From Longimicrobium sp. (GTDB lineage: Bacteria; Gemmatimonadota; Gemmatimonadetes; Longimicrobiales; Longimicrobiaceae): 56,201 bases of DNA. Positions 54,195 through 56,111 of this stretch are shown piece after piece. The notes under the pieces were generated by a model. That model was not told where the DNA came from and searched no databases. It was given only the letters and a program-made list of their open reading frames with translations. The stretch spans positions 1 to 56,201 of the forward strand of contig DASUYB010000040.1 in the NCBI GenBank assembly GCA_036377595.1, in the 5' to 3' direction. Position numbers and translations under genes: made by a program. Every line of letters starts with the position of its first letter. Position 1 is the first letter of the stretch.

Positions 54195-54255
54195 TTTAGT
54201 AGAGTCGAGCTGGGGCGCCGTGGCGTGAATGCCCGGTTTCCCCAGCCCGCTCATC

Positions 54256-54288
54256 GAACCGGACGTGCGGATTTCCCGCATCCGGCTC
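54256..54288 (-). ncRNA. group II intron domain V
   Basis: The minus strand starts GAGCCGGATGCGGG and ends CGCACGTCCGGTTC, a hairpin with a GAAA-type tip and the AGC catalytic triad near its 5' base. This is the ribozyme active centre and is intact. Confidence 0.8.
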
Positions 54289-54299
54289 TCCGACTGGGT

Positions 54300-55626
54300 T
54301 CACGTCAAGGCATGCGAGGGCACCACCTGCCGACGCTTGTACAGTTGCACCAGGCCGAGACTCGACCGGAGCCACTGATTCCCAAAGCGTCGGGTCCCCC
54401 GCCCGGGGACCTTGTGGCGTCGCACCAGAAACCTCCGCAGCAGCATGCAGGAGTATTCGTCCAAGGACCGGTAGACGTCGCCGAGCGTCCCTACGCTGAA
54501 GTAGTTCGCCCAGCCTACCAGTCTCCGGTTCACCTCGGCCACGACCTCCCCTGAGCGGCCCTGGTTCCCCGGTCGCAGCACGGTGCGCAGCGACTGCTTG
54601 AAGCGCTTCACCCGCTTCTTCGAGGGCGTCACTCCCAGATACGTTCCACCGGTCCTCCGGACACCATCGGCCCGAAGGTATAGCCCAGAAAGTCGAAGCT
54701 CTCTTCCCGGGCGTACCGGAGGTGCGTCTTCTGCTCGTTCAGCCTCAGCCCAATGCGTTCGACGATCCACCGCAGCGACTTCAGCGCCGTTTCGGCGTCG
54801 AAGCGGTCGCGGCACAGGATGACCAGATCGTCGGCGTAGTTGATGATCCGCGCCCGCAGGTGCCGCTCCAGTCCGAACTTCTTCCACGCCTTCAGCAGGC
54901 GGTGGATGTAGACGTTGGCCAGCAGCGGCGAGATCACCCCACCCTGCGGGGTGCCCTCCCGCGAGCCTTCGCCTCCCGTTCTCAGCGTGTGCCCCCGGTC
55001 ATCCGTCTCCTCAGCCGGGGCCTTCAGCCACATCTTGATCAGACGCAGCATCTTGCCGTCGCTGACTCGCCGCGCGACCGACTGCATCAGCTCGCGGTGC
55101 GGGATCGTGTCGAAGTACTTCGACAGGTCCGCATCCACCACGTGTACTTCCCCGTGCTGGATCGCCCGATGCACCTCCTGCACTGCATCCAGCGCCCCAC
55201 GCTTCGGCCGGTAGCCATAGGCATTCGGCTCGAAGTCCGCCTCGAAGATCGGCTCCAGAACCAGCTTGGCGGCTTGCTGCACCACCCGGTCCCGAACCGT
55301 CGGGATTCCGAGCAGCCGCTCCCCGCCGTCCGGCTTGGGGATCCTCACCCGACGCACCGCCTCGGGCCTGTACTTCTCCTCTCGAAGGTCTGCCGCCAGA
55401 GCGGCCAGCCACGCCTCCAACCCTGATTCGTCAATGTCGGTGAACGTCACCCCGTCCACTCCCGCAGCCCCGCCGTTCGCACGGCACAGCCCATAGGCGT
55501 GCAACAGGATGTCCGCTCTCCAGACCTTGTCGTAGAGCAGGTAGAAGGATAGGCAGGCTCCCCCTTGGCCTTGAGGTAGAGCTTGTTCTGAAGGGTCCGA
55601 ATCTTCTCTGGAGTTTGCAGGCTCAC
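54300..55626 (-). pseudogene. group II intron reverse transcriptase/maturase, two frameshifts
   Basis: An LtrA-like maturase. It starts at a GTG at 55626 (GAGGAG upstream) as VSLQTPEKIRTLQNKLYLKA. A one-base loss near 55545-55550 shifts the frame before FYLLYDKVWRADI. The central part is intact: IPKPDGGERLLGIPT, YRPKRGALDAV, GTPQGGVISPLLANVYI and the active-site YADD. A second shift near 54650-54667 precedes RTGGTYLGVTPSKKRVKR and the maturase domain (GWANYFSVGTLGDVYRSLDE). No HNH endonuclease is present. Either an inactive copy or sequencing errors; the intron would then depend on a maturase elsewhere. Confidence 0.85.
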
Positions 55627-56111
55627 GCCAATCTCCTCTTCTCGCCTTCTTCCGAAGCGTCCCAGAAGCAGGGCCCCTTCCCTCCACCGGCATTACCCGG
55701 CTTCCCCGGTACTATGAGCCCCTCCGACGCCCGCACCGGCCGCTCGCTTTCCGAGCGTTGCGGAGCAGCGACCTCCACTCCGGCGCGGGCCTCCCGTGTT
55801 GCGTGCGCGCTCTGTGCTTGCGTGCCCTCCCCATTACCCCGGCGAGTCGCCCGGTCTGCGACGGTTGAAGATCCGGGCGCGGCGGCCTTCCCCGATTGGT
55901 AGGCGGGTCGGCACTCACATCCATCGTTTCGAGGCCTGCTCAGGGTTCACTCTCGTTGGGCCCGCACGCTCGCCAGCCTTCCCAAGGAAGACAGTTGTCC
56001 GGGCGGCTTCATCGCGATCCTCTGCAATGCGCCCGTAGCTACGGAGGTGTACCGTCAACTCCTCCGGCAGGACTTTCACCTGCTAGAACGCGCCGCCTTT
56101 GCACGGCGCAC

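Follow-up and report, generated by a model that had tools for sequence, protein, structure and literature searches.

Decay of a group II intron in Longimicrobium and the apparent homing of its lineage to dispersed repeats

The window, a 56,201-nucleotide stretch of DNA that makes up an entire contig (C40) of a Longimicrobium sp. assembly (G000; 7.2 Mb, 208 contigs), contains on its minus strand a group II intron of 1,913 nucleotides (54199-56111) that is very probably a decayed copy, and probably no longer mobile. It belongs to an endonuclease-minus intron lineage of the genus, the relatives of which are located at the ends of repeats. To judge from sequence comparison, this lineage appears to home to dispersed repeats, and the relatives are apparently guided to the repeat ends by base pairing between RNA and DNA. 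Taken by itself, the window copy is an unremarkable decayed example of an element type that is already known; the repeat homing of its lineage is the part that deserves follow-up.

Boundaries and ribozyme structure of the intron

The window intron is recognized by Rfam at both of its ends, and its boundaries were fixed by its relatives. Part of domain I (55951-56085, minus strand) matches the family group-II-D1D4-4 (79.6 bits, cut-off 49), and a match to Intron_gpII (49.8 bits, cut-off 40) extends from 54290 to 54199 on the minus strand. In keeping with its assignment to group II, domain V (54256-54288, minus strand; Rfam, folding and alignment of relatives) is accompanied by a domain VI (54202-54252, minus strand; folding and alignment) with an unpaired branch A at 54205, seven bases before the intron end. 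The final 94 nucleotides have a folding energy of -55.7 kcal/mol (z -6.1). The helices of domains V and VI are well conserved in an alignment of 11 relatives (10 of the rows being distinct): 99.0% of the helix cells are paired, and two-sided changes occur in 19 cells compared to a shuffled mean of 4.3, a count biased in favour of the structure because the structure was derived from the same alignment. The window copy and its sister in another genome of the genus (G007) differ in domain VI, where two base pairs have changed in a compensatory manner. The introns on contigs G001:C28 (L014) and G025:C323 (L040) have an additional arm of about 57 bases in domain VI that is absent from the window copy.

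A model of the 3' end gave 32 matches in ten genomes of the genus, of which 16 strong matches were used and 16 weak ones were set aside (11 in G005, plus C88 of the home genome, G001:C48, G004:C497, G007:C84 and G003:C65). All 16 strong copies diverge at ...CTCTAC|T, and 54199 is therefore the correct 3' end; the 5' boundary at 56111 was set likewise by copies in G007 (ten 5' ends), G003 (two) and G001 (one). Group II introns begin with GUGYG, and the window intron begins with GTGCGCC at 56111, a junction that the relatives confirm. The first-pass annotation had described domain V, domain VI and the GTGCGCC end as normal, which is borne out by Rfam, folding and the relatives, and the junction analysis that it proposed as a check on misplaced ends finds the relatives diverging at 54199 and 56111.

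Two deletions in the maturase gene

The sister intron on contig G007:C110 (L013) is 89.6% identical to the window copy and contains a single open frame, which starts with the GTG at position 503 and is closed by a stop codon near 1831. Compared to this frame, the window copy is one base short at about 55547 (approximately 55547-55548, minus strand) and again at about 54660 (approximately 54658-54661, minus strand; the aligner placed this gap at 54642, but the change from one reading frame to the other occurs near 54660), so that the one-base shifts reported earlier near 55545 and 54660 hold up against an open relative. The reverse transcriptase domain of the window copy is in a frame of 354 amino acids that starts from a non-native ATG (54629-55693, minus strand), the native GTG (55624-55626) being in a different frame, and a domain search located the maturase domain (GIIM) in the remaining frame (54300-54660, minus strand), out of frame with the reverse transcriptase. 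Since the two domains are in separate frames, no product with both is expected of the window copy. Compared with the sister in G007, the window copy has a dN/dS ratio of 0.21 over 442 codons, indicating that the protein was selected until recently, and the two parts of the protein differ in divergence (0.11 over the first 330 codons, 0.37 thereafter). The G007 protein matches RVT_1 and GIIM, and the search for an endonuclease domain yielded no match at an E value of 0.001 in a 444-residue slice that is missing the last ten residues (L013 467-1798, starting 12 codons ahead of the GTG and stopping ten residues short of the stop). Its relatives are spread over many phyla (80 kept of 225 protein matches), and the top PDB matches of the maturase include maturases of group IIC introns.

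The first-pass annotation also proposed that such a copy could still splice or move by using a maturase from elsewhere, and that the genome be searched for an intact sister. This is unlikely. The well-formed domains V and VI with their compensatory change, the GTGCGCC end, and the existence of an ORF-less relative of 756 nucleotides with both ends present (G001:C28) are all consistent with a ribozyme that depends on the maturase of another intron, but a search with PF00078 found no intact group II reverse transcriptase in the assembled home genome, and the window copy pairs with its 5' exon at just five of six positions (see below). The sole other reverse transcriptase in G000 (C88:35217-35833; L010, L011) is distant, in two pieces, and likewise frameshifted, so that, allowing for the gaps that remain in the assembly, the borrowed maturase is unsupported; the open sister turned up in G007 instead. 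It is improbable, in turn, that the window intron is intact and that both of its indels are errors of sequencing or assembly, for example through collapse of near-identical copies. Another copy may be collapsed, considering that the last 86 bases of contig C2 of G000 (L003), which follow unrelated sequence, match intron positions 369-454 at 99% identity (a further copy, unassembled, possibly lies beyond this end), and the window contig itself stops 90 nucleotides past the intron. Two indels in a single gene of 1.3 kb, however, far exceed the rate in the remaining long frames across the window, which reach 1,161 amino acids and most of which appear continuous in a composition scan, a mild argument against assembly noise at the deletions. 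Decay is also not confined to this copy: besides the frameshifted gene on C88, contig C79 of G000 preserves about the last 160 nucleotides of a member of the lineage, in which domain VI is damaged, G004:C119 retains the 3' part only, G007:C74 has lost the 5' part and the ORF, and the ORF of G001:C28 is lost.

Three minor observations concern the same contigs. There is a weak match to the 3'-end model near the reverse transcriptase of C88; an overlapping pair of frames (10335-11852 and 11519-12325) is a possible exception in the composition scan of the window; and the window contig begins within a 16S rRNA gene (1-139, minus strand), a typical break of short-read assemblies.

Dispersed palindromes of the genus

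The palindrome at which many of the relatives are located is abundant in the genus. Its CTCTGNGTGA half-sites, counted on both strands, number 527 in G000 and 759 in G007, compared to 23 and 16 for a control consisting of the reversed pattern. They are clearly above the control in nine of the ten genomes of the genus (in G008, 18 versus 4) and around background in most of 31 other genomes, among which G031 and G033 are raised. The genome with the 11 weak 3'-end matches, G005, also has the most half-sites (1,517). The presence of the palindrome in G002, G006 and G009, which gave no match to the 3'-end model of the intron, shows that it does not owe its existence to the intron. Among copies chosen for having two half-sites close together, the inverted arms extend over 59-72 bases in 20 copies of G000 and over 75-175 bases in 20 copies of G007, some of which are composite. 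The variant CTCTGTGTGA occurs 652 times in G007, 282 times in G001, 30 times in G000 and nine times in G003 (controls 3, 0, 3 and 1, respectively), and the G007 intron and the two G003 introns therefore occupy a variant that is common in their own genomes. The sequence GATTYGGTATSA occurs 16 times in G000, 12 times in G001, 14 times in G003 and not at all in G007 (controls 0). Additional dispersed repeats of G000 and G001 terminate in GATTYGGTATSA (L214-L231), and the window contains a full copy of the TCACGCAGAG...CTCTGCGTGA palindrome (72 bases) at 34340-34411.

Exon junctions of the relatives

The 5' exon ends in CTCTGTG in all ten G007 copies that have a 5' junction (in one case displaced inward by a CTCTGTG unit). 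These copies are nearly identical and thus not independent lineages, and their 5' and 3' halves are on separate contigs that could not be joined. It ends in CTCTGCG in both G003 copies and in GATTTGGTA in the G001 copy. On the other side of the intron, the first base of the 3' exon is T in 16 of the 16 strong copies, and the first three are TGA in 14, the exceptions being the window copy (TAA) and G007:C110 (TCT). In G007, the bases on both sides of the junction belong to a palindrome of the form TCACACAGAG...CTCTGTG|TGA. Nine G007 exons are long enough to show its left arm, and eight of them keep it (TCACACAGAG in seven and TCACACGGAG in one), with the right arm only in L162; of the G003 exons, L156 also keeps the left arm, and a variant of it is present in L154. 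The palindrome itself supplies, as its final three bases, the TGA that opens the 3' exon in G007 and G003, and insertion before stop codons, which the TGA had suggested, was dropped as an interpretation on this account.

All 11 of the G007 and G003 5' exons with enough flanking sequence fold with z-scores of -2.4 to -12.0, and equally low values are found in two of 23 introns of other genomes (from the 39 introns with a readable EBS1). The corresponding values are -0.1 in G001, 0.9 in G025 and -0.6 in the window copy. The G001 intron is located at a different repeat: its 5' exon is identical at 70 of 81 positions to an intron-free repeat of the same genome that ends in GATTTGGTA|TGA (L228), and at 63 of 82 and 58 of 82 positions to two others (L227 and L231, respectively). 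The G025 intron is away from any such repeat end, and no full match was found for its exon.

Flanks of the window copy

The 5' exon of the window copy ends in CCGGATTCGGTG, which resembles the ends of repeats (24 of 28 positions identical to L222), and a T follows the intron. Directly adjoining the 3' end of the intron is one arm and the loop end of a second palindrome (54165-54198), the other arm of which is missing; full copies are found in L005-L008, and the sequence from 54116 to 54198 is repeated throughout the home genome. The preceding palindrome (54058-54118), a dispersed copy of the first kind with CTCTGNGTGA half-sites, is the feature that was earlier called a terminator. It is located 80 nucleotides past the 3' end of the intron and has no T-run, and folding of the 5' exon revealed no hairpin (z -0.6). 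Of the insertion beside a terminator hairpin that the first-pass annotation suggested, a link to hairpins is supported, the G007 and G003 copies following one, but the supposed terminator as the mark of insertion is not: the palindrome near the window copy is on the 3' side, lacks the T-run, and has no counterpart in the 5' exon. A search of the ten genus genomes with the window 5' exon, for an empty site, matched only the exon itself. The flanks of the window copy look rearranged, as a deletion or an exchange between copies could bring about; a fault of assembly is possible too.

Pairing of EBS1 with the repeat ends

The context of EBS1 was sought in 87 sequences (80 loci of protein relatives, six further loci and the window) and could be read in 39 introns. 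Six bases located three past GCCGACCC pair fully with the final six bases of the 5' exon in 24 of these 39 introns; full pairing was found in none of the 39 at eight other offsets, and in a mean of 1.74 (maximum 7) with permuted exons. Some of the 39 are closely related to each other and the rows are thus not independent; for L085, the start used for the reading was probably wrong. EBS1 reads CACAGA in G007, and TACCAA in both G001 and the window copy (55896-55901, minus strand). The pairing is complete (six of six) in the G007 and G001 copies; in the window copy, the IBS1 of the present 5' exon (TCGGTG, 56112-56117, minus strand) forms five of six pairs, one of them a wobble. The G007 EBS1 is the exact complement of the end of its palindrome, and the G001 EBS1 fits the repeat of G001 itself, where the intron occupies another repeat although 282 CTCTGTGTGA half-sites are available in that genome. 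The EBS1 of the G003 introns is beyond the contig ends, no pairing site having been found in the 135 nucleotides of intron sequence present on those contigs, and none was found for G025; the match between intron and host is accordingly based on G007 and G001.

It seems rather likely, from these sequences, that the lineage adopted genome-wide repeats, mainly a REP-like palindrome present in hundreds of copies per genome, as its homing site, and that EBS1 was switched so as to follow the common repeat or variant of each host. As the sequences show, members such as the open G007 copy encode the reverse transcriptase and maturase; the six bases before the intron are the end of a dispersed non-coding repeat, either the right foot of the palindrome (G007 and G003) or a different repeat (G001); and EBS1 matches the repeat of the host in G007 and G001. 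The EBS1 of the window copy fits repeat ends of the GATTTGGTA type, but it counts against the homing interpretation that this copy is not at a palindrome foot, its 5' exon being free of a hairpin and pairing at five of six positions. Because its maturase is broken, its present exons pair at five of six positions and these exons look rearranged, splicing of the window copy in place is doubtful.

Two other explanations of the association with repeats deserve less credence. It is highly improbable that the introns insert anywhere and that copies in non-coding repeats are simply retained: survivorship is to be expected of any mobile element, and the repeats are outside long reading frames where they were inspected, but survival alone would not be exact to the base, as are the G007 junctions at the same hexamer in ten of ten copies with an EBS1 that is its exact complement. 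Still less credible is a group IIC intron placed after a transcription terminator, which would account for the hairpin preceding the G007 and G003 copies, for the endonuclease-minus reverse transcriptase and for the IIC maturases among the PDB matches, but conflicts with the location of the G007 IBS1 within the stem itself, with the relatives elsewhere being mostly free of hairpins, and with a window copy that has no hairpin in its 5' exon and whose nearby palindrome, without a T-run, is on the 3' side.

Comparison with other bacterial group II introns

In the available text of a review, three targets of bacterial group II introns are distinguished, namely homing sites, terminators and attC sites, and terminator-homing IIC introns are described as inserting downstream of a hairpin that is part of the 5' exon (PMC4424553). 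The present lineage resembles group IIC (class C) in being endonuclease-minus and in the hairpin at the junction of its G007 and G003 copies, but differs from those insertions after terminators or attC sites (PMC4424553, available text) in that IBS1 is in the foot of the stem and the exact end of the repeat is used, and in that the 5' exons of the G001 and window copies are free of hairpins. It likewise resembles RmInt1 and RmInt2 of Sinorhizobium meliloti (IIB3, class D), which are endonuclease-minus and have multicopy targets; according to the text available, however, those targets are insertion sequences (PMC5894124), whereas the present lineage is found at short non-coding palindromes. Inactivated copies of RmInt1 also exist, according to the accessible part of PMC4496777. 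A group II intron of Pseudomonas putida KT2440 is beside REP palindromes, as in the present lineage, but in just two of nine copies, a minority, and the accessible part of that account describes no targeting by pairing (PMC1525189). The introns of class F and of g1-g4 are similarly reported to encode endonuclease-minus reverse transcriptase/maturases, and the Ni.ha introns of Nitrobacter hamburgensis are placed in g3 (PMC3552965, available text). The reverse transcriptase of a N. hamburgensis plasmid is 55.6% identical to the G007 protein, a pairwise identity alone, which does not assign the plasmid copy to g3. Apart from the P. putida REP table, homing of a group II intron lineage to dispersed palindromes was not noticed in the literature covered, which was accessible in part and excluded most subscription papers. 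If correct, base-exact homing to dispersed palindromes would represent a fourth type of target, or else a very open form of homing, with hundreds of sites; and a change of target from host to host is testable, since the letters of EBS1 are directly readable.

More distant introns were also found at recurring sites. Four of them (L055, L060, L074 and L075), from Rhizobium, Acidiphilium and a Rhodospirillales bin, are inserted at sites that resemble one another, with GGCAAGA or GGGAAGA before and AGAT or AGAC after the intron; we take the location to be a transposase gene. A distant relative in Acidisphaera sp. S103 (L087) likewise has a 5' exon that ends in CTCTGCG-like repeats.
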